IMG/VR virus record: IMGVR_UViG_3300034378_000003
Span: 1 to 20,351 of that record
Source: a virus
Strand: one strand, 5' to 3'
DNA length: 20,351 nucleotides
Each line of letters begins with the position of its first letter. The first letter of the stretch is position 1. Positions 7,277 through 20,351 of this stretch are shown here, in pieces. The position numbers and the translations under genes are program-made. The notes below the pieces were generated by a model, which was not told where the DNA came from, did no database searches, and saw nothing but the letters and a program-made list of their open reading frames with translations.

Positions 7277-7371
7277 AGTGCCAGTGTAGTAAAGGGCTGC
7301 ACGGAACCCAGCGGGCTTTCCGTAAGACACCCTGGCACTGGTGTTTGCAAGGTATAGCCCGCGAAAGCAAA
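7277..7371 (+). promoter_or_regulatory. Structured leader RNA candidate: two hairpins with complementary loops
   Basis: The 113-base gap after the tape measure gene holds nested inverted repeats. Hairpin 1 has AGTGCCAGTGT (7277-7287) against ACA-CC-CTGGCACT (7327-7339, with a two-base bulge), then an inner ACGGAA (7301-7306) against TTCCGT (7318-7323). Hairpin 2 has TTTGC (7344-7348) against GCAAA (7367-7371), which ends right at the GGAG of the next gene. Loop 1 contains GCGGGCT (7311-7317) and loop 2 contains its exact complement AGCCCGC (7356-7362), so a 7-bp kissing interaction is possible. No T-tract follows, so it does not look like an ordinary terminator. A role in translation control or mRNA processing is an inference. 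Confidence 0.5.
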
Positions 7372-7383
7372 TGGAGAAGAGAC

Positions 7384-7866
7384 ATGAGAACTCGACTTCC
7401 GATGCGCGGTTTCTACTTCATTGAGCACCGGAATAAGGCCGGAAAGCTCATCGGTATCTACCGCGTGCCTAATGGCATTACTGATGTGGGCATGAATGAC
7501 CTACTCGACGTGCATTTCGGAAACGATACACAGCACGCCCTTTGGTACATTGGCCTCATCGACAACTCTGGCTACTCTGGTGTTGACCCGACTGATACGA
7601 TGTCGTCGCACGCTGGGTGGACAGAGAACACCGACTATAGTGGGAACCGTAAGCAGTGGGTTGTTGGTTCTGCTGCGGGCCGTTCGATCTCGAATGGTAC
7701 AACGGCTGACTTCAACATCACTGGTACGGCAACTCTACGAGGTATCTTTGTAAACACAGATGAAACTGGCACAGCCGGTACTCTTTGGTCCACAGCCCTG
7801 TTCAGTTCGCCTGTTTCGGTTCAGAATGGTGACACGCTGAAGATCACTTATACGGTCAGCGGCTAA
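7384..7866 (+). CDS. Small beta-rich phage virion protein (probable fibre/tip-associated)
   Basis: A 160-residue protein. ATG at 7384 is chosen because GGAGAAGAG lies at 7372-7380; the upstream TTG at 7345 would put the start inside a hairpin and has no RBS. After 'LIGIYRVPNGITDVGMNDLL' comes a pattern I know from phage structural proteins: 'WYIGLIDNSGYSGV', 'DTMSSHAGWTE', 'FNITGTATLRGIFV', and a closing 'VQNGDTLKITYTVSG'. It is predicted to be nearly all beta. No catalytic motif, signal peptide or membrane segment is seen. It is flanked by the structured leader upstream and a strong terminator downstream, so it looks like its own expression unit placed between the tape measure gene and the adhesin array. 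A minor tail or fibre-base role is likely but inferred; a decoration protein is an alternative. Confidence 0.8.
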   Translation: MRTRLPMRGFYFIEHRNKAGKLIGIYRVPNGITDVGMNDLLDVHFGNDTQHALWYIGLIDNSGYSGVDPTDTMSSHAGWTENTDYSGNRKQWVVGSAAGRSISNGTTADFNITGTATLRGIFVNTDETGTAGTLWSTALFSSPVSVQNGDTLKITYTVSG

Positions 7867-7882
7867 GTCTCTCCCTCGGTGT

Positions 7883-7920
7883 GCCCCGGTGTGGGAGGAT
7901 TCCCGCGCCGGGGCTTTCTT
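7883..7920 (+). terminator. Strong intrinsic terminator before the adhesin array
   Basis: A 14-bp stem with a GGAT loop: GCCCCGGTGTGGGA (7883-7896) pairs with TCCCGCGCCGGGGC (7901-7914), including two T-G wobbles. It is followed by TTTCTT (7915-7920). It separates the 160-residue virion gene from the five-gene array. If it is efficient, the array needs read-through, antitermination or its own promoter; I see no clear promoter in the 14 bases that remain before the ATG at 7935. Confidence 0.85.
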
Positions 7921-7934
7921 CAAAAGGTGCGAGC

Positions 7935-8969
7935 ATGGCTCTACTTTGGGTCGATGGTTTTGAAGGCTATAGCCAGGTAGATGGTCAACAAATCTACCAG
8001 GAGCTAGGTCGCCGATACTCCATCGGTGGAGTCTACATTCGCGCTCAAAATGACGGTCGCTTTGGTGGATGGTCTGCCTGTGTGGCATACAACAATGTCA
8101 CATGGTTTATGACTCCATCACTAACGACTGATGATACATTCATTGTTTGTTTTGCAGTCAAATGGTTGTCTTCTATCGGTACCGATAGATTCTGTGAAAT
8201 GTGGAGCGATGGTACCCGAGGAATGGGTATCCGAGTTTTGTCAACAGGTGAAGTTGACATCTATCGTGGTACAACTTTCATTGAACGTTCAACTCTTTCA
8301 CCAATCAAGATTGGAAAGTGGCATTGGATTGAGTTCAAGGTTGTATGTGATAATTCGGCTGGTTCCTATGAAGTGAAGGTTGATGGAGTTACAGTTCTTT
8401 CAGCTTCAGGGGTAGATACACAACAGAACCTAGCTTACCACGATCAAGTAATCTTTCGAGGTACGGGCAGCAACAGCAGCAATACCCCTCGTATTGATGA
8501 TCTCTTTATCATGGATGGTACTGGTGGTAGTTACAATGACTTCATTGGACAGCGACGAGTTCTAGCAATCACTCCAAATGCTGATACAGCGGATGTTGAT
8601 TGGACAGTGAGTGGCGGCTCAGATCATTATGCGTTGGTAGATGATTTGGACCCAGATGATGATACCAACTACGTAGAAGATAGCGTCACAGATGAGGAAG
8701 ACATTTGGGAGTATAGCGATATTTCTGCCTTTGATGGTAGTGTTGATGCCTTGAGTTTGATTACGGGTGTAAGAATTACGGATGCAAGTCCGTATGATTT
8801 GAAAACTGTAGTCAAATCAGGTGGGACAAAATACGATAGTTCGGCGGAAACAATCGGTAACTCTGATTACGCAATGAAGGATCGGTTGATGGTCACTGAT
8901 CCTGACACTGGTTCGGCATGGACCCAGAATGGTATCAACAATGTCGAAATGGGTGTGAAGGTAGGCTAA
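7935..8969 (+). CDS. Tail adhesin-like protein, array paralogue 1 (LamG/jelly-roll-like)
   Basis: 344 residues, first of five related proteins that all begin 'MALLW-x-(D/E)GF' and end 'GVKV(G/D)'. ATG at 7935 follows AAAAGG (7922-7927); the in-frame GTG at 7881 lies inside the terminator and is rejected. Residues 1-205 look like a concanavalin-A/LamG jelly roll: 'DGRFGG' at 40-45, 'TPSLTTDDTFIV', 'WHWIEFKVVCDNSAGSYEVK' near 129-148, 'RIDDLFIMDGTGG' near 186. Residues 206-344 form a second domain with an acidic 'DPDDDTNYVED' (239-249) and 'DPDTGSAWT' (322-330). Jelly-roll domains of this type commonly bind carbohydrates on phage fibres, so a receptor-binding or fibre role is likely but inferred. 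Its TAA overlaps the next ATG. Confidence 0.85.
   Translation: MALLWVDGFEGYSQVDGQQIYQELGRRYSIGGVYIRAQNDGRFGGWSACVAYNNVTWFMTPSLTTDDTFIVCFAVKWLSSIGTDRFCEMWSDGTRGMGIRVLSTGEVDIYRGTTFIERSTLSPIKIGKWHWIEFKVVCDNSAGSYEVKVDGVTVLSASGVDTQQNLAYHDQVIFRGTGSNSSNTPRIDDLFIMDGTGGSYNDFIGQRRVLAITPNADTADVDWTVSGGSDHYALVDDLDPDDDTNYVEDSVTDEEDIWEYSDISAFDGSVDALSLITGVRITDASPYDLKTVVKSGGTKYDSSAETIGNSDYAMKDRLMVTDPDTGSAWTQNGINNVEMGVKVG
8958..8965 (+). promoter_or_regulatory. RBS of paralogue 2 embedded in the GVKVG codons of paralogue 1
   Basis: AAGGTAGG encodes part of the C-terminal K-V-G and lies about 7 bases before the ATG at 8969. No other Shine-Dalgarno sequence is available, since the genes overlap. Confidence 0.7.
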
Positions 8970-10003
8970 TGGCACTCCTATGGTTCGATGGCTTCGACAA
9001 ATACGGAGACGACGTAGGCTCGTGTGATCCTTTGAGGATCATGGAGACTCGTTATGCCATTCGTGGAGACAAGTTTTACCCTGAACCGGGTCGCTTTGGA
9101 GCTTATGCTATTGCACCACGTTGGGATGCAAATACCTGGTTTCAAACACCCCACCTGACAACAGACCGAACACTAATTGTTGGCTTCTCAATGAGGGCAT
9201 CGACCAACTGGGGTAGTGGCTACTTTTTACACCTAGTATCACACAACAATTGGAGTTTAGCTCTGTATCTTCATAGTGATGGTTCAGTATCAGTACGACG
9301 TAATACTACCATTCTTGAACAAACTGGAGCAGGTGTTCTTCCAAAGGAAGAATGGCGTTTTGTTCAACTGAAGATTTACTGCGATTCAACTAATGGTACG
9401 TGGGAACTTCGGATTGATAACACTACAGAACTCCAAGGGACAGGAAATACACAATCTGATAGTGATAACTATTACAGTGCTGTTCGTATCTCCAGCATCA
9501 ATCATCAGGCAACATACCAACCACGTTTCGATGATCTTTGGATTTGTGATTCAACTGGGGCTGTAGCAAACAACTTTCTTGGACCAGGGTACCGTGTATC
9601 AACGCTTAATCCATCGGATGATGGGGACTCATCTGATTGGACGCCTAATCCGTGGCCTGACCATGTAGACAATCTTGATGAATTGATCCAAGATGACACT
9701 GAGTACGTGGAAAGTAGCGCAGCAAATCATCTTGATCTGTATGATTATGACAGCCCACCAGCAATGAGCCAAATCAAAGGGGTTCAGGTTCAAACAGAAG
9801 CTATCATTACAGAACCTAATCCTCACACGCTCAAGACAGTCATCAAACACGCAGGGACAGAAGATGAGGATGCGGGGCAGATTGTAGGGACGAGCGATTT
9901 TCTCGTGGCCTACCAGAGGCTTATGCCTATCAATCCTGTAACAGCCGTTGATTGGATTCGACAAGATATTGAATACCTTCAGGCAGGTGTAAAGGTGGGC
10001 TGA
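8969..10003 (+). CDS. Tail adhesin-like protein, array paralogue 2 (most divergent)
   Basis: 344 residues. Start at the TAATG overlap, giving 'MALLWFDGFDKYGDD' aligned with its paralogues; an in-frame ATG 17 codons earlier lies inside paralogue 1 and has no counterpart elsewhere in the family. The jelly-roll landmarks are kept with changes: 'PGRFGAYAI' replaces DGRFGG, then 'TPHLTTDRTLIVGF', 'LKIYCDSTNGTWELRIDN', 'RFDDLWICDSTG'. The second domain is the least like the others: the 'DDDTSY' motif is 'QDDTEYVES', a 'LDLYDYDSPP' segment replaces the usual 'DIFEYADI', and the end reads 'NPVTAVDWIRQDIEYLQ' instead of 'DPDTG...WT'. It still closes on 'AGVKVG'. Divergence at the same positions suggests different ligand specificity or a different place in the fibre; both are inferences. 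Confidence 0.85.
   Translation: MALLWFDGFDKYGDDVGSCDPLRIMETRYAIRGDKFYPEPGRFGAYAIAPRWDANTWFQTPHLTTDRTLIVGFSMRASTNWGSGYFLHLVSHNNWSLALYLHSDGSVSVRRNTTILEQTGAGVLPKEEWRFVQLKIYCDSTNGTWELRIDNTTELQGTGNTQSDSDNYYSAVRISSINHQATYQPRFDDLWICDSTGAVANNFLGPGYRVSTLNPSDDGDSSDWTPNPWPDHVDNLDELIQDDTEYVESSAANHLDLYDYDSPPAMSQIKGVQVQTEAIITEPNPHTLKTVIKHAGTEDEDAGQIVGTSDFLVAYQRLMPINPVTAVDWIRQDIEYLQAGVKVG
9992..9999 (+). promoter_or_regulatory. RBS of paralogue 3 embedded in the GVKVG codons of paralogue 2
   Basis: AAGGTGGG, at the same offset before the ATG at 10003, supports the TGATG coupled start. Confidence 0.7.
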
Positions 10004-11067
10004 TGGCATTACTCTGGATTGAAGGTTTTGAGGGGTTGCAGTCTGGCTATGATCCAGGTTGGTGGAGTAATCAAGACCTTGAAAAGAATCTACTGCGACG
10101 TTATTGGCGAGCAAGTAGCCTAATCAATGGTCGTATGCGAACAACAGAGGGACGATTTGGTGGTTATGGTTTGGAGTTTTATCCAGGATTTGGTGTCTGG
10201 TTTCAAACGGCTCCATTGACCACAGATCGAACATTGATTACAGGGTGTGCCTTGCGTTGGGGTGATCGGAATGGTGGCGGGCCAGGACGAATCGTTTCAC
10301 TATATGACGGCGACAATTTAGAAGGGATGCAAGTTCGTGTTGCTGACTCTGGTATCAATCTTGAAATCTGGCGTGGCAACACAGTCATGGAAACACTCAC
10401 GGGAGCTGAAATTCCCGAAGATGAGTGGTTTTACATCGAGTTCAAGGTCTACTGTGACAATACAAATGGTACATGGGAACTACGACTCAATGGGAATGTG
10501 ATTGGCAGTGCTAGTGGCGTAGATACCCAAGCAAGTATTACCAACTATCATCAAACTGTTCAATGGAATACCAATTACTGCGATCAAAAGATTGATGACA
10601 TCTATATCTGTGATGGTTCTGGTTCAAAGAACAATGATTTTCTGGGTGTTATGCGAGTAATTCCTGCCTGGCCTGGTACAGACCAAACCATTGAATGGGA
10701 GACAATGGTTGGGGCTCCTGACCATCCAAGAGCAGTTAATGAGCAAGAGCCTGATGACGATACATCTTACATTGAAGATGATGATGTTGGTGATAAAGAC
10801 ATCTTTGACTATGCGGAAATTACGGATAGTTTCGGTACTGCTGCTGGGTTGATGATAAATACCCTTTGTAGAGAGACAGACGCACAAAGCTTTGATCTCA
10901 TCAACATTGTTCGTTCTAATGGGACAGAGTACGATCAGCCAAGTCAGAAAGTCGGTTCATCATCGTATGTTCACCGCTACGACATTTTGGAGTCTGATCC
11001 AGCCACAGGATTAGATTGGACAAAAACAGGGATCGACAGTGCTCAGTATGGTGTAAAGGTAGACTAA
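10003..11067 (+). CDS. Tail adhesin-like protein, array paralogue 3
   Basis: 354 residues, starting at a TGATG overlap with paralogue 2. The first 50 residues carry an extension not seen in paralogue 1 ('GYDPGWWSNQDLEKNLLRRY'), followed by 'TEGRFGGYGL', 'TAPLTTDRTLITG', 'YIEFKVYCDNTNGTWELRLN' and 'KIDDIYICDGSGSKNNDFLG'. The C-terminal domain is very close to that of paralogue 4 (shared 'EDDDVGDKDIF-x-YA', 'CRETDA', 'GTEYDQ', 'GSSSYV-x-RYDILESDP'), whereas the N-terminal parts differ much more. The pair thus shares a common attachment or oligomerisation domain with a divergent head. It probably acts as a virion surface adhesin. Confidence 0.85.
   Translation: MALLWIEGFEGLQSGYDPGWWSNQDLEKNLLRRYWRASSLINGRMRTTEGRFGGYGLEFYPGFGVWFQTAPLTTDRTLITGCALRWGDRNGGGPGRIVSLYDGDNLEGMQVRVADSGINLEIWRGNTVMETLTGAEIPEDEWFYIEFKVYCDNTNGTWELRLNGNVIGSASGVDTQASITNYHQTVQWNTNYCDQKIDDIYICDGSGSKNNDFLGVMRVIPAWPGTDQTIEWETMVGAPDHPRAVNEQEPDDDTSYIEDDDVGDKDIFDYAEITDSFGTAAGLMINTLCRETDAQSFDLINIVRSNGTEYDQPSQKVGSSSYVHRYDILESDPATGLDWTKTGIDSAQYGVKVD
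11056..11062 (+). promoter_or_regulatory. RBS of paralogue 4 embedded in the GVKVD codons of paralogue 3
   Basis: AAGGTAG lies before the ATG at 11067, in the same register as at the other junctions. Confidence 0.7.
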
Positions 11068-12149
11068 TGGCACTTCTTTGGGTTGACGGCTTTGAAGGCT
11101 ATGAGACGACAGATGAGCATTACATTGCTGATCGTCTCATTCGTCGAGGCTACACACATCCCGGTGGTCCTGGAGTTCGCTACAGTGTCAGAGATGGACG
11201 CTTTGGTGGTAAGTCTCTTTGGCTCTTTGGTGATGGTGGTCCGTGGGTAAGAACACCAGCTTTAACAACCGATAGGACATTGATTGCTGGGGTTTCTATC
11301 TACATGGAAGCAACAGATACTTACCCAGGAGCTAATCCAATCATCACCTTTTTTGATGGTGATAATAATGAAGGCATGATGGTCTACCTTAATGGAGACC
11401 CTGGACGTGGAACAAAGTTTCAAATTGCACGTGGATGGTCCGGTGCTGCTCCAGCGGCAATTCTTGAAACTGTAGATGATCCCTTGTTCCCTATGCCTCT
11501 TCAATGGTATCACTTAGAGTTCAAAGTTTACTGTGATAATACAGCAGGAACGTATGAGCTTAAATTGAACGGTGTGACCATTGCAAGTGATACTGGTGTT
11601 GACACGCAAGAAGGAACATCCAACTATCATCAGTCTGTAAGATTGCACAGTATTAATGATCGCACACCGCACTACGACGACCTATATGTTTGTGATGGTA
11701 CTGGCTCAAAGAACAATGATTTTCTAGGTGTGGTTAAAGCAGTCCCAATCTTCCCCGAATCTGACCATACAGCACAATGGGAAACAGTGGTAGGTGGTCC
11801 CAACCACGCAGATTCGGTTGATGAAATTGAACCTGATGACGACACAACCTACATTGAAGACGATGATGTAGGTGACAAGGACATCTTTGAGTATGCTGAC
11901 ATTACTGACTCTCTCGTGTCAATTGATGGTCTAATGCTGCACACAATTTGTCGAGAAACAGATGCTACAACATTTGACATCATTCAAATTATTAGATCAG
12001 GCGGCACAGAATACGATCAAGCGAGTCAAGCTGTAGGTTCGTCATCGTATGTCAATCGCTATGACATTCTGGAATCTGATCCAGACACAGCTTTGGATTG
12101 GACGAAGACAGGAATCAATGCGGCTCAATTTGGTGTGAAGGTGGACTAA
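11067..12149 (+). CDS. Tail adhesin-like protein, array paralogue 4
   Basis: 360 residues, the longest of the five, starting at a TAATG overlap. The jelly-roll half has 'RDGRFGGKSLWLFGDGG', 'TPALTTDRTLIAG', then a family-specific insertion around residues 110-145 with 'RGTKFQIARGWSGAAPAA' that is absent from the others, then 'LEFKVYCDNTAGTYELKLNG' and 'HYDDLYVCDGTGSKNNDFLG'. The second domain matches paralogue 3 closely in protein, yet many synonymous third bases differ, which argues against a very recent copy. The insertion falls between strands and could reshape a binding surface. An in-frame ATG at 11016 inside paralogue 3 is rejected as a start. Confidence 0.85.
   Translation: MALLWVDGFEGYETTDEHYIADRLIRRGYTHPGGPGVRYSVRDGRFGGKSLWLFGDGGPWVRTPALTTDRTLIAGVSIYMEATDTYPGANPIITFFDGDNNEGMMVYLNGDPGRGTKFQIARGWSGAAPAAILETVDDPLFPMPLQWYHLEFKVYCDNTAGTYELKLNGVTIASDTGVDTQEGTSNYHQSVRLHSINDRTPHYDDLYVCDGTGSKNNDFLGVVKAVPIFPESDHTAQWETVVGGPNHADSVDEIEPDDDTTYIEDDDVGDKDIFEYADITDSLVSIDGLMLHTICRETDATTFDIIQIIRSGGTEYDQASQAVGSSSYVNRYDILESDPDTALDWTKTGINAAQFGVKVD
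12138..12144 (+). promoter_or_regulatory. RBS of paralogue 5 embedded in the GVKVD codons of paralogue 4
   Basis: AAGGTGG lies before the ATG at 12149, in the same register as at the other junctions. Confidence 0.7.
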
Positions 12150-13186
12150 TGGCACTTCTCTGGATTGATGGCTTTGAAGGCTACGGCACAACTCTCAATG
12201 CCGATCCTGCGCCTGTTGATGTTCTCGGTCGTCGGTACCCTATTGCTAATACCCCGACGGGTATGGAGATTAAGGAGGGACGCTTTGGCGGTCGAGCCAT
12301 CTATTTCTGGAATAGTACATGCCAACTCAAAACGCCTGAACTTACTACCGATGATACCTTGATAGTTGGTGTTGCAACCAAACGAGAAATCAACAACGAC
12401 ATCTATCCAATTTCCATGTGTGATGGCATCACGTTGGGGATGAATATACGCATCCCTGGCGGCCAAAGTGAAATCTACATCTACCGTGGAAACTCCCTTG
12501 TAGAAATCACCAGTGGGGCTAACATCGGGATTGGTACTTGGCACCATATTGAGTTCAAAGTAAAGTGCCATGATAGCAATGGTGAATATGAACTCAAAGT
12601 AGATGGTATCTCTATCACCAGTGCTACGAGTGTCGATACAAAAGCTGGAGCAAACACTTACCATAACTCTGTTAAGCTAATGGTTCCATCTTCACATGGT
12701 CATCCTACCTGGGATGATCTCTGGATTTGTGATAGCACTGGTTCTCAAAACAATGACTTTCTTGGCAACCAGCGGGTATCAGCGATCTTTCCTGGCGGTC
12801 CCGATGATATAGCGGGTTGGGAAACATCGGTACCTGTTGGTAATCACTATGAGACTGTCGATGAAGAACAAGTAGACGATGACACTAGCTACATCGAAGA
12901 CGACGATAGTGGTGATAAAGACCTTTGGAATTACGGAAGTGTTCCTACCTATGGACAAATTCAAGGTCTTCAAATCAATACTGATTGTAAGGAAACTGAC
13001 GCAACTGACTTCACGCTAATCACCGTCATCAAATCGGGTGGGACGGAATACGACGATTCACCCCAAGCGGCAGGCAGCGGTGATTGGATTACACTTCGTC
13101 GTATTGCAGAACTTGACCCAGATACCGGCGCTCTTTGGACGGAGAGTGGCATCAATAATGGGATATTTGGCGTAAAGGTAGGGTAA
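12149..13186 (+). CDS. Tail adhesin-like protein, array paralogue 5
   Basis: 345 residues, starting at a TAATG overlap. Landmarks in order: 'MALLWIDGFEGYGTT', 'KEGRFGGRAIYFWNST', 'TPELTTDDTLIVG', 'IEFKVKCHDSNGEYELKVDG', 'TWDDLWICDSTGSQNNDFLG', 'VDDDTSYIEDDDSGDKDLW', 'DPDTGALWTESGINNG', and 'FGVKVG' at the end. In the C-terminal 'DPDTG...WT' and 'GINN' it resembles paralogue 1, while its acidic motif resembles 3 and 4, so the array looks mosaic. It is the only member whose stop does not overlap the next start; the repeat-containing gene begins one base after its TAA. Function is inferred as for the other members. Confidence 0.85.
   Translation: MALLWIDGFEGYGTTLNADPAPVDVLGRRYPIANTPTGMEIKEGRFGGRAIYFWNSTCQLKTPELTTDDTLIVGVATKREINNDIYPISMCDGITLGMNIRIPGGQSEIYIYRGNSLVEITSGANIGIGTWHHIEFKVKCHDSNGEYELKVDGISITSATSVDTKAGANTYHNSVKLMVPSSHGHPTWDDLWICDSTGSQNNDFLGNQRVSAIFPGGPDDIAGWETSVPVGNHYETVDEEQVDDDTSYIEDDDSGDKDLWNYGSVPTYGQIQGLQINTDCKETDATDFTLITVIKSGGTEYDDSPQAAGSGDWITLRRIAELDPDTGALWTESGINNGIFGVKVG
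13175..13183 (+). promoter_or_regulatory. RBS of the repeat-containing tail gene embedded in the end of paralogue 5
   Basis: AAGGTAGGG lies inside the last codons of paralogue 5 and serves the ATG at 13188. The array's junction signal is thus kept even where the next gene is not a paralogue. Confidence 0.65.
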
Positions 13187-13187
13187 C

Positions 13188-14696
13188 ATGGCACTGAGGG
13201 TGACGAGACAATACGGTGAAGTCCTGGGAGCGGGCGAAGGTAAGCTGCGTGTAACACGCCAGTATGGTGAAGTTCTTGGCTCGGGAGAAGGTAAGCTCCG
13301 TGTCACACGACAGTATATTGAAGTTCTTGCCTTAGCGTATGTTATCCACGAGCATAGTCTTAGCCAAAGCTTGGGCATTACCGATAATGCGCACGTGCCT
13401 GAACGACATGAACGATTGACTGATACTCTCGTTCTAACTGAGCGTGTTCCAGGTACATTCTCTGAAACCTTGGCCCACGATCTAAACCTCAGTGAGGCAG
13501 CTTCTCGTACACTTCCACAAAGTATCACTGATAACTTGAATCTCATCGTAGACTGGGATGGTATGCTCAGTGAAGGTGAGCATTCTTCATTCCATGACAC
13601 ACTGATCTTTACTCAAGATATTGAATTTGCTGCTGGTCTCTTCAATGTCCTGGAGACCGAAATGTCAATGACTGATAGTGTCAATGATATTGGACCACGC
13701 TATCGACTTTGTTGGAATCGGATTCACATGTATGATTACATGCCCTCCAAGTTTGCTAGTGCTGAGAGTGTTATCACTATGACAGATTTGACAGGGCGGG
13801 ATTACTTTGGAGTAGCTTCATCTACCATTAGTATGACAGACGAAGCATATTGGAGCGAAACTCCAGAAGATAATCTAGGGTTAGTTCAAAGCTTGGATTG
13901 GGGTAAGACAAAAGGCATTCCTGCTCAGTGGCTAAATCTGGAGCATACTGTCGATCTACAAGGTGATTGGTCACGAGCGGTTATCGAAACGCTCGGAATT
14001 GGACACTCTCTTACTTACTATCTACCAGACCCATGTGATGATAAAGCTTACACACCATTTGTAGGTGAAAGTGATGTAACTGATAGTCCTACACCACCAT
14101 CAGGAGACACGCCTTTTGTTCAAGGATTACCTGAAGGGGAACGATTCCTTTTACTCTACCCCGCCCTGGGTGAGTCTACTGACATCGTGGAACTTCGAGC
14201 ACCTAATCTTGACAATCGAGAGCGACAAGCTTTTACACGAATCAACCGTGAAACTCGTGGTGGTAAGTTAGTTATCTTTGCCGATCCTGATTGGCCAAAG
14301 ATCAATACCCTCGTTCTCAGTTTCTCTGGCTTGACAAAGACTGAAGTTGAAGAAGTTCAACAGTTCATGGTCGATCATATCGGTCAGGAAGTTGGTATTA
14401 TTGACTGGGAAGGACGGCAATGGGCTGGTATCATAACAACACCGAACGAACGAGCCGTCCAAGATGGGAAGCATGGATTTACCATCTCATTTGAGTTTGA
14501 AGGAGTGGTGTTTGATGAAATGCCATCTGGCACTGCTATGTCATTAGTCGATAGCTTTACCCACTTCTTCCACAAAGATCGTTCTCTAACTGATACCATT
14601 GAGTGGGTCCATTGGCCTCAGCGATGGGTTGAATTTCCTCGTAGTCTAACCGACACGCTTTCCATGTCCGATCAGGTACAGGAACAGGTGGTGTAA
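13188..14696 (+). CDS. Repeat-containing minor tail protein
   Basis: 502 residues. Residues 3-51 are nearly three copies of a 17-residue unit 'LRVTRQYGEVLG-x-GEGK', a motif I associate with phage tail and fibre proteins. From about 65 to 285 there are irregular repeats of the type 'LTDTLVLTE', 'ITDNLNLI', 'FHDTLIFTQ', 'TEMSMTD', 'STISMTDEA', which suggest a beta-repeat stalk. Residues about 285-443 form a globular domain ('LVIFADPDWPKINTLVLSF', 'GQEVGIIDWEGRQWAGIITT', 'GFTISFEFEGVVF'); a related fold may be present in the next, smaller gene. The stalk repeats resume afterwards (SLTDTIEW, SLTDTLSMSD), so the domain looks inserted in the stalk. It is probably a tail-tip or fibre attachment protein. 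The stop overlaps the next start (TAATG). Confidence 0.85.
   Translation: MALRVTRQYGEVLGAGEGKLRVTRQYGEVLGSGEGKLRVTRQYIEVLALAYVIHEHSLSQSLGITDNAHVPERHERLTDTLVLTERVPGTFSETLAHDLNLSEAASRTLPQSITDNLNLIVDWDGMLSEGEHSSFHDTLIFTQDIEFAAGLFNVLETEMSMTDSVNDIGPRYRLCWNRIHMYDYMPSKFASAESVITMTDLTGRDYFGVASSTISMTDEAYWSETPEDNLGLVQSLDWGKTKGIPAQWLNLEHTVDLQGDWSRAVIETLGIGHSLTYYLPDPCDDKAYTPFVGESDVTDSPTPPSGDTPFVQGLPEGERFLLLYPALGESTDIVELRAPNLDNRERQAFTRINRETRGGKLVIFADPDWPKINTLVLSFSGLTKTEVEEVQQFMVDHIGQEVGIIDWEGRQWAGIITTPNERAVQDGKHGFTISFEFEGVVFDEMPSGTAMSLVDSFTHFFHKDRSLTDTIEWVHWPQRWVEFPRSLTDTLSMSDQVQEQVV
13194..13331 (+). repeat. 51-bp in-frame tandem repeat, about 2.7 copies
   Basis: Copies at 13194-13244 and 13245-13295, plus a partial copy at 13296-13331, encode 'LRVTRQYGEVLG-x-GEGK'. 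The protein units are almost identical, while the DNA differs mostly at third codon bases (for example AGG/CGT/CGT, ACG/ACA/ACA), so the repeat is old and kept by selection on the protein. Confidence 0.85.
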
Positions 14697-18012: not shown

Positions 18013-18393
18013 ATGAAAGAGCAGGTTTGCAAATACCAGCGCACACTTTACGAGGTAGACCGTAAAGTGCATGTTTCATCATGCGGTAACTACAAGTGTA
18101 TCCATCACTGCGGTCCAGTAAGTCGCATCATTTGCGATGATTGTAGCCTTCGTGAACCACCTGATTTGGAAGATCAGCGTGAACTTGAAACACTCGATGG
18201 TACTTACAACTACGAAGAAATCGAAGCAAGGACACCTGAAGAACGTCAAGCAATCTTGGAAACATATTGCTTCAAATGCAAGCATCTTGACACTGAAGCA
18301 AAAGTTTGTCAGGTGTGCGGCTGCACATTGCAAGCTCCTATTGATGAGTATGCAAAGTACGCCAACTTCCACTGTCCTTTGGAGCTTTGGTAA
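18013..18393 (+). CDS. Cysteine-rich zinc-module protein A
   Basis: 126 residues with 12 cysteines, RBS GGAGGGAG just before the ATG. The N-terminal module has C6, C24, C29, C33 and 'CDDCSLRE' (C41, C44) with adjacent HH. The C-terminal module is 'YCFKCKHLDTEAKVCQVCGC' (C86, C89, C99, C102, C104) ending in 'HCPLELW' (C121). The CxxC...CxxCGC...HCP-x-x-W layout looks like a zinc ribbon of a kind often seen in small phage proteins of unknown role. It shares both modules with the next gene. It follows the hub, whose own C-terminus is cysteine-rich, so a virion-tip or assembly role is possible; a regulatory zinc protein is the alternative. Function unknown. Confidence 0.8.
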   Translation: MKEQVCKYQRTLYEVDRKVHVSSCGNYKCIHHCGPVSRIICDDCSLREPPDLEDQRELETLDGTYNYEEIEARTPEERQAILETYCFKCKHLDTEAKVCQVCGCTLQAPIDEYAKYANFHCPLELW

Positions 18394-19139
18394 TGCAACT
18401 ACCTTGTCAAAAACGACGCCGAATTGTGCGAACAGAACGCGATGGTTCAAAGCGTGAGCTACACAAATGCGCGCATGGGATGGCTTCTACCTATCGACAG
18501 GAGGTAGATGACAACGTATGCGAAGGTTGTGTACTACGTCAAGTCTTGTTGAGTCAAAGACCTTGTAGTCCAAAGCCACCAAAGGAGCCTACGTATGCAC
18601 AGCCGGTGTTCGGAGAAGACGCTGAAATTTGCTACCGGCAAATAAATGCTGACCCGCCAGAATGTCCTGACGGCTACAAACGTAGGTTAGATGATCCCTG
18701 GACTTTCGATTCGATTTGGTTTCCTTGCCAGTATCGTCTTTTCAACAATGATTTGAAGCCCAATGGATCAGTCAAGATCAATCCTTACTGCATCCTAGCA
18801 AAGAAGCCCATTGATTTTGAGGAGTGCAATCGCTGCCAAGGTGCCCTGGCAAACGTAGGGGCTACCTTAAATCCTGATGAAACACCTGATTTTCCAGGTT
18901 TCACTAAGCAAATGCAGAACTACTGGGCAGCGGTACGTAAGTGGATAGCCGCAGGACGACCTGTTCGCTCTAAAGGAGAGGTAGAATTTCTGCATGGTAC
19001 TTATTGTGCCAAGTGCGATTGGTACGACAAAGAAAGCAAACGATGCAAGGGCTGTGGTTGTAAGGTGAGACCTAAAGGCTCAGCCATGCTGAACAAAATC
19101 AGAATGGCGACAGAACACTGTCCACGAGACTTTTGGTAA
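18393..19139 (+). CDS. Cysteine-rich zinc-module protein B
   Basis: 248 residues with 17 cysteines, starting at the ATG that overlaps the previous TAA; an upstream TTG at 18387 is rejected. Its ends match protein A: near the N-terminus 'HKCAH' and 'NVCEGCVLRQ' (C43, C46); at the C-terminus 'YCAKCDWYDKESKRCKGCGC' (C205, C208, C218, C221, C223) and 'EHCPRDFW' (C243). Between them is a 140-residue insert absent from A, with 'CYRQINADPPECPDGYKRR', 'CQYRLFNN', 'PYCILAKKPIDFEECNRC' and an Arg/Trp-containing helix. A and B look like an old duplication in which one copy gained a middle domain. Zinc binding is strongly suggested; the cellular or virion role is unknown. Confidence 0.8.
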   Translation: MQLPCQKRRRIVRTERDGSKRELHKCAHGMASTYRQEVDDNVCEGCVLRQVLLSQRPCSPKPPKEPTYAQPVFGEDAEICYRQINADPPECPDGYKRRLDDPWTFDSIWFPCQYRLFNNDLKPNGSVKINPYCILAKKPIDFEECNRCQGALANVGATLNPDETPDFPGFTKQMQNYWAAVRKWIAAGRPVRSKGEVEFLHGTYCAKCDWYDKESKRCKGCGCKVRPKGSAMLNKIRMATEHCPRDFW

Positions 19140-19433: not shown

Positions 19434-20051
19434 TCAGCGTCCGAATGAGGCTAGCATCGCTTTGTACAGTTTAGCTTCAGCTAGGGCATCACCCAAGGCA
19501 TCGTGTGCATTGTCGTTGACAATACCATACTTCTTGCACACCGCCCCAAGACTGACATACGGGAAAGGCGTCTTCAGTCCATGATATGTAGCGGCATCGT
19601 TGATGCTCAATGCGAAGAGCATCGTATCCCGTGGGTGCGGGTGGAAAAACTGATTGAAGGATTCTATCCCTAGCCAATTAGTCAAGAAGCCACGTTCAAA
19701 GGCCCAGTTATGGGCTAATGGCATGAGGCTCCGTTGAAAAGGCAAGTTGAGATTCTGGAACCATTCATCGAACAGATCAGCAACCTTCCAAGCGTCAGGG
19801 CAGTTGCTCATCAATTCCTCTATGTCCAACCCATGAACCATTTGGGCTCCATGCTCACACCGCTCTGGGTGAGCCGGTGCGATGTTCATATAGAAGGGAT
19901 TGATGTCGGGGACAGGTTCAATCTCGCTTGTGAGTGGTACAACGGCAATCTGAATGATCTCGTGGAACCCTGCCACTCGACCAGTTGTTTCCACGTCTAC
20001 GGCAACCATCATGTTGCCATTCAGATTTAGTAAGCTATTCGGTGCAGGCAT
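19434..20051 (-). CDS. DEDDh 3'-5' exonuclease (DnaQ-like)
   Basis: 205 residues when started at the ATG at 20051, which has GGAG eight bases upstream and gives 'MPAPNSLLNLNGNMMVAVDV'. A longer in-frame ATG at 20324 would add 91 residues that read as an overlapped, non-coding frame and is not preferred. ExoI is 'VAVDVETTG' (D19, E21); ExoII is 'AHNWAFERGFLTNWLG' (N115, F118, with E119 where Asp is usual); ExoIII is 'HDALGDALAEAKLY' (H183, D188). The family removes nucleotides from 3' ends using two metal ions, in proofreading or nucleic-acid turnover. It lies on the opposite strand to the tail genes and probably belongs to the replication or early region. Fold is certain from the motifs; the substrate is unknown. 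Confidence 0.9.
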   Translation of the reverse strand: MPAPNSLLNLNGNMMVAVDVETTGRVAGFHEIIQIAVVPLTSEIEPVPDINPFYMNIAPAHPERCEHGAQMVHGLDIEELMSNCPDAWKVADLFDEWFQNLNLPFQRSLMPLAHNWAFERGFLTNWLGIESFNQFFHPHPRDTMLFALSINDAATYHGLKTPFPYVSLGAVCKKYGIVNDNAHDALGDALAEAKLYKAMLASFGR

Positions 20052-20265
20052 TTCCATCTCTCCAATCTTCACCTTCATCTTGCCATTTCTTCTTACGATC
20101 CTCGGGAGGTTCCCATGAGTCGCCTTCAAAGAATCCTTCTTCTGGCAGAGTATCTTCCGGCCCCACTGTTGTTGGAGGCAGAGAAGGCGCTGCTGGCGGC
20201 TTTGGTTGCTCGGGAGGCCGTGTTGGTCCGTCACCACTTGATTCCAAACGCAACAAACGCAACAT
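20035..20265 (-). CDS. Proline-rich acidic small protein
   Basis: A 76-residue ORF overlapping the start of the exonuclease gene by 17 bases in another frame. The composition is strongly biased: a Pro-rich half ('PTRPPEQPKPPAAPSLPP') and an acidic, Trp-containing half ('DSWEPPEDRKKKWQDEGEDW'), which looks coded rather than random. The ATG at 20265 is the only start after an in-frame stop, but it has no visible RBS. The other frame here is Cys/Gln-rich and does not look coding, while 'MASESLRRQLEP' at 20324-20289 in that frame looks more protein-like. A frame change near 20265, or a sequence error, is therefore possible. It was not recognised as any family and is probably disordered. The remaining bases up to 20351 show no other feature. 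Confidence 0.55.
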   Translation of the reverse strand: MLRLLRLESSGDGPTRPPEQPKPPAAPSLPPTTVGPEDTLPEEGFFEGDSWEPPEDRKKKWQDEGEDWRDGNACTE

Positions 20266-20351
20266 TTTGCGGTTGTTGGGGATGTTTGCGGCTCAAGTTG
20301 CCGTCGCAAGCTCTCGCTTGCCATTAGTAATGCGCGTTTACCGTGGTGGCG

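Follow-up and report, generated by a model that had tools for sequence, protein, structure and literature searches.

Five tandem genes in the tail module of the virus studied here, a phage from an uncultured sample, encode full-length members of one protein family whose first half is predicted to adopt a concanavalin A-like lectin fold. Rather than a system of a new kind, this array is an expanded, well-kept instance of an arrangement that recurs in phage tail modules. Members of such arrays are kept as separate lineages and are gained, lost, and probably exchanged, with a lectin half that changes fast and another half that changes slowly. We proposed, with moderate confidence, that the five proteins are most likely tail-associated accessory lectins of differing specificity that share a docking domain and bind the host surface. 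In the literature searched, which comprised papers open without subscription, no prior description of a tandem array of lectin-fold tail proteins was found.

Gene Structure of the Array

The window, that is, the whole stretch of DNA analyzed, is a complete virus record of 20,351 bases and probably represents a genome fragment. The array lies in the tail module, with a tape-measure gene upstream (phrog_23013, E = 3e-34; PF10145, E = 1e-25) and tail-tip genes downstream. The features are listed below, where L numbers denote related viral contigs.

7384..7866, +, 160-aa protein (phrog_8123, E = 3e-18), fixed upstream neighbor of the array by synteny
7871..7924, +, leader, CTCCCTCGG, terminator-like, with a 14-pair hairpin (7883-7914) and a U-rich tail (fold z -4.3)
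7935..8969, +, copy 1, 344 aa, lectin-fold domain and C-domain; orthologue, copy 1 of L006-L009, L011, and L013
8958..8963, +, AAGGTA, Lys-Val codons of copy 1; also at 9992-9997, 11056-11061, 12138-12143, and 13175-13180
8969..10003, +, copy 2, 344 aa, the most diverged paralogue; orthologue, copy 2 of L006-L009, L011, and L013
10003..11067, +, copy 3, 354 aa, structure predicted; orthologue, copy 3 of L011 and L013
11067..12149, +, copy 4, 360 aa; orthologue, copy 4 of L011 and L013
12149..13186, +, copy 5, 345 aa; orthologue, copy 5 of L011 and L013
13188..14696, +, 502-aa protein, fixed downstream neighbor of the array by synteny

The original prediction of five paralogues of 344-360 aa, all opening with MALLW and encoded on the plus strand between 7935 and 13186, was confirmed from the open reading frames, and the motifs that it named were found (MALLW..GF, GRFG(G), EFKVYCDNT, DD(L/I).ICD.TG, and the GVKV(G/D) end). 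With copy 3 as the query, the other four copies were matched over their full length at E = 3e-115 to 8e-46, with no internal stops; judged from these matches, homology among the five copies is far beyond chance. Identity between paralogues is approximately 30-55% across the array, the other copies being 33-43% identical to copy 1, and copies 3 and 4 form the closest pair (51-55%). The start codons of copies 2-5 overlap the preceding stop codon by 1 nt (TAATG or TGATG). At the conserved GVKV end, Lys-Val is encoded by AAGGTA or AAGGTG, located five bases 5' of the next start, and this sequence may thereby double as a ribosome-binding-like site for the next copy.

Family Membership and Predicted Fold

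All five copies belong to PHROG 2448 ("unknown function"; E = 1e-28 to 2e-37), and the matches span model positions 2-334 of 335 (from position 17 in copy 3). The match is thus full-length, but this family, with no assigned function, names the proteins without explaining them. For the five copies, nothing above the cut-off was found in Pfam and no match in NCBIfam, and sequence searches of solved structures with the five copies, the 120-member profile, and the C-domain profile returned nothing credible.

An AlphaFold2 model of copy 3, built with 120 family members (pLDDT 94.5, pTM 0.93), comprises a concanavalin A-like beta-sandwich (residues 1-221) followed by a smaller C-terminal beta-sandwich. 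In the fold search, the first half of this predicted model showed the two-sheet jelly-roll of the concanavalin A-like lectin/glucanase fold, with matches to the X122 module 8q28 (Z = 17.8), Cip1 (17.2), glucuronan lyase (17.1), the alginate lyase Aly36B (16.6), CBM66 (14.5), and the baseplate BppU module of Douge (14.4). Single-chain structure prediction, which had been suggested as a check, therefore yielded a carbohydrate-binding-like fold, and a first half described beforehand as jelly-roll/LamG-like is supported as lectin-like. For the suggested heteromeric fiber, no support was found; each chain is predicted to fold into a pair of compact globular domains that lack a fiber shaft. Viral models related over the full length include a virion structural protein of AchV4 (TM 0.78).

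The closest solved folds of the lectin half, namely X122, Cip1, glucuronan lyase, Aly36B, and CBM66 (Z = 14.5-17.8), belong to cellular polysaccharide-acting enzymes and polysaccharide-binding modules that are 7-15% identical to it and do not carry the phage C-domain. A phage protein with the same fold is BppU (gp23) of mycobacteriophage Douge, whose binding module (residues 116-311) binds both M. smegmatis cells and fragments of LAM when produced on its own (PMC13033339). In BppU, an N-terminal domain forms a ring around the distal tail protein, whereas the proteins of the window begin with the lectin domain at residue 1, with no preceding domain, and continue into the C-domain. Sequence similarity between the window proteins and Douge BppU was not detected; the likeness lies in the fold and counts as analogy rather than sequence homology.

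A lectin fold by itself is no proof of sugar binding, and the binding role of the family is a prediction from models. When modeled alone, the C-domain gave a pLDDT of 95.2, and its best fold matches were carbohydrate-binding modules at Z of at most 8.0; these weak matches leave room for a C-domain that might itself bind rather than dock. A named fold for the C-domain was rejected because the fold-search matches were only middling.

Homologues in Cultured Phages and in Virions

A tblastn search with copy 5 reached nine cultured phage records only, and copy 3 was used instead. By tblastn, about 200 phage records contained the family, including many from Chi-like phages, and despite this presence PHROG 2448 is without an assigned function. 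With half-specific profiles, the same C-domain was recognized in YSD1_31-34, Enc34 ORF33-36, four genes of Salmonella phage SLP-22, three genes of Proteus phage Saba, AchV4_0025-0027, and five consecutive genes of Serratia phage JS26, often beside a lectin half that has diverged. The C-domain profile from the window's family matched YSD1, Enc34, SLP-22, Saba, JS26, and AchV4 at E = 4e-4 to 7e-21. Among the closest known systems are those of the Casjensviridae (YSD1, Enc34, AchV4, and JS26), which likewise carry tandem tail-module proteins, annotated as hypothetical, that end in this C-domain, several with a recognizable lectin half. However, the run of genes in Casjensviridae comes after the tail-tip/tail-fiber genes, whereas the array of the window precedes them, and the first halves in Casjensviridae differ far more among themselves, some to the point that profiles no longer recognize them.

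AchV4_0025 and AchV4_0026, both of which carry the C-domain of the window's family, were detected in virions by LC-MS/MS and were described by the authors as unlike any characterized structural protein (PMC7996906). This result supports the earlier assignment of the five copies as virion proteins, here of the tail module. The family member of phiCbK is absent from the eight proteins detected in phiCbK virions (PMC3556154).

Copy Number and Orthology

We addressed the copy number of the family in the slot between the 160-aa and 502-aa genes, the neighbors of which are conserved. One copy was present in L014, L016, and L021, two in L006-L009, three in L023 and L033, four in L040, and five in the window, L010, L011, and L013, and also in L028 on a different branch. 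Among 65 clusters bounded on both sides, 29 were single, 24 had two copies, 5 had three, 2 had four, and 5 had five, in a sample that leans to near relatives, since the patterns were built from the window copies, and that includes some near-duplicate contigs. The statement that phages normally carry one or two such genes thus holds for 53 of the 65 bounded clusters but not for the other 12, which have at least three, nor for cultured Casjensviridae with their 3-5 tandem C-domain proteins.

In the tree, every copy position formed its own supported clade, and each window copy was nearest to the same-position copy of the five-copy relatives, with the exception of copy 1, the best match of which was in L006. 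Copies 1 and 2 are common to two-copy phages, and the clades of copies 3, 4, and 5 hold, among the tree rows, the window, L011, and L013 only; L010 is nearly identical to L011. Copy 5 is the window copy nearest to the single copies of L014, L016, and L021. L007 is close to the window, L011, and L013 in its other genes, yet has only copies 1 and 2, which indicates that a block of three copies was gained or lost.

A conflicting history was observed for copy 1. In the tree of the flanking genes, the window formed a group with L011 and L013 (support 87/97), which L007 joined next (97/98); the copy 1 tree instead placed the window with L006, L008, and L009 (95/96). The flank clade was rejected for copy 1 (AU test, p = 8e-5; p = 0.019 with L007 added), and was not rejected for copy 2 (p = 0.07). 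The simplest reading is that copy 1 was probably exchanged while its neighbors stayed; alternatively, the same copy 1 tree would arise from the loss of one of two older copy-1 lineages.

Beyond phages, no family matches were found in plasmids. Bacterial genomes were searched with the five-copy alignment, the 120-member alignment being too diverse for this purpose, and only two contigs were found, in metagenome-assembled genomes (MAGs) binned as Anaerolinea and Dechloromonas, which give no firm host. In the 63-kb contig of the Anaerolinea MAG, the syntenic tail module is complete and includes one family member (L092:1074-15172); this contig is possibly a host hint, or else a mis-binned phage contig. 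The 3-kb contig in the Dechloromonas MAG (L093:27-3012) is made up entirely of tandem family members, at least four in number, and contig or match ends truncate two of these.

Selection and Divergence of the Two Halves

In every comparison of a window copy with its orthologues, pN (0.14-0.43) was below pS (0.59-0.87). Where dS could be estimated, the dN/dS of the array was 0.07-0.23, and as many dS values were saturated, the direction alone is safe; the array tends to evolve faster than the neighboring 160-aa and 127-aa genes (0.04-0.11). The five full-length copies are all intact and under purifying selection, in agreement with the absence of decay noted before.

In 25 of the 27 orthologue pairs compared, which are not independent, conservation was lower in the lectin half than in the C half. 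In particular, copy 5 of the window compared with its orthologues at 0.60-0.64 in the lectin half and 0.88-0.90 in the C half, and window copies 3 and 4 are 43% identical in the former and 69% in the latter. Variation clusters at residues 11-66 and 91-138. This sequence pattern is what a fixed docking domain with a variable binding face would be expected to give, but it holds for recent divergence only, because family-wide both halves are about equally diverged (0.32 and 0.33).

The Leader before Copy 1

The leader was compared among 76 loci. The motif CTCCCTC occurred at most 90 nt upstream of the first copy at 27 of them, versus about 0.3 expected, and a strong hairpin preceded the first copy at 32. 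In relatives, the arm sequences of the hairpin differ and the pairing is kept through compensatory changes. As the leader is present in one-copy and five-copy phages alike, whatever the copy number, it belongs to the slot and not to the expansion. The simplest reading is that it would act as an intrinsic terminator that is partly read through. The leader had no match in Rfam, and sigma-70-type promoters inside the array were not above the shuffled expectation. We found no description of either the array behavior or the leader in the openly accessible literature that was searched.

Proposed Role of the Array

In the accessory role that we proposed, the N-terminal concanavalin A-like lectin domain would most likely bind a host surface glycan, and the smaller C-terminal beta-sandwich would most likely serve to dock the protein on the tail or its tip. 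The array would grow and shrink through whole-gene gain, loss, and exchange at one fixed site of the tail module, and differing binding properties would keep the copies side by side, so that virions would display several lectins. The 1-nt stop/start overlaps would link the expression of the copies, and the terminator-like hairpin 5' of the array would keep them at a lower dose than the tail genes upstream. What we infer here is that the lectins bind glycans and are displayed at the same time, that the C-domain docks, and that the hairpin attenuates. Receptor binding by a set of different binders, as the original prediction had it, is plausible, and it fits a lectin half that diverges faster and a copy 1 whose history conflicts with that of its flanks. 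The absence from phiCbK virions and the equal family-wide divergence of the two halves count against accessory lectins. A fuller version, in which each virion carries five lectins that differ in glycan specificity and share one type of dock, with members traded as cassettes and a dose set by the leader, is put forward tentatively. If the lectins do bind different glycans, this would explain broader adsorption in some tailed phages without an altered main tail fiber, and it opens unannotated genes of well-studied Chi-like phages to direct testing.

It is rather unlikely that the proteins are instead decoration subunits of the tail tip or tail, with a lectin-like fold but no binding role and each copy at its own tail position. 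The fixed place in the tail module, the homologues in virions, the position-specific orthologues, and the strong purifying selection would all suit such subunits. However, a copy number of one to five in otherwise syntenic phages is hard to reconcile with essential position-specific subunits, and the faster change of the lectin half and the conflict between copy 1 and its flanks also count against this reading.

We also weighed polysaccharide-degrading enzymes (lyases) that would remove capsule or exopolysaccharide, each acting on its own polymer type, and consider them unlikely. Glucuronan lyase and alginate lyases are among the folds nearest to the lectin half (Z = 16-17), Pfam Polysacc_lyase is matched by 7 of the 120 family members (lowest E, 1e-5), and the annotation of phage Pam4 assigns a polysaccharide lyase to one homologue region. 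In the window, however, the Polysacc_lyase match (PF14099) is limited to copy 1 at E = 6e-4, with 20.2 bits against a gathering cut-off of 29.9; identity to the lyases is 7-12%, and the near-invariant residues are mainly Gly, hydrophobic, and acidic. Finally, display of one copy at a time, with the array as a reservoir for recombination or expression switching, could draw on the terminator-like leader, the history of copy 1, and conserved gene borders that could aid recombination, but it is improbable given five intact copies with pN well below pS, the coupled starts and ribosome-binding-like site of copies 2-5, the presence of two paralogues together in AchV4 virion preparations, and promoter-like sites no more frequent than in shuffled sequence.

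Neighboring Genes and Other Elements of the Tail Module

Downstream of the array, the gene order is the 502-aa gene, a 127-aa gene, and a 973-aa gene, the product of the last being weakly similar to gpJ and Phage-tail_3. No contractile-sheath gene was recognized, and by gene content the phage is likely a siphophage. The 160-aa protein shows a weak likeness to the podophage fiber protein gp80 (Gp80, E = 3e-4, below the cut-off), and the 502-aa protein had no family match in the Pfam, PHROG, and NCBIfam searches. At the 5' end of the 502-aa gene (13194-13295), two 51-nt tandem repeats, 75% identical, encode LRVTRQYGEVLGxGEGK and are followed by a third, partial copy; the first 45-50 residues of the 502-aa protein are strongly conserved in L028 and L092, and the remainder is not.

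Upstream of the tape-measure gene, a 252-aa gene (783-1541), perhaps the tail-tube gene judged by its position, is represented by at least two tandem full or partial copies in L006 (2445-4238), L014 (1870-3719), and L016 (1583-3712). Between the tape-measure gene and the 160-aa gene, a conserved intergenic element of approximately 100 nt (7277-7370) is near-identical in L007, L010, L011, and L013. It contains two interleaved pairings, CCAGTG/CACTGG and GCGGGCTTT/AAAGCCCGC-like, an arrangement that suggests a pseudoknot, and an Rfam search with this element gave no match.

Toward the end of the window, two adjacent genes (18013-18393 and 18387-19139) encode cysteine-rich zinc-ribbon-like proteins, both of which match phrog_13558 near their C-termini. 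An exonuclease gene of the DNA polymerase proofreading type (19434-20294, minus strand; RNase_T, E = 6e-12; phrog_192, E = 2e-26) follows on the opposite strand and marks the end of the tail operon.
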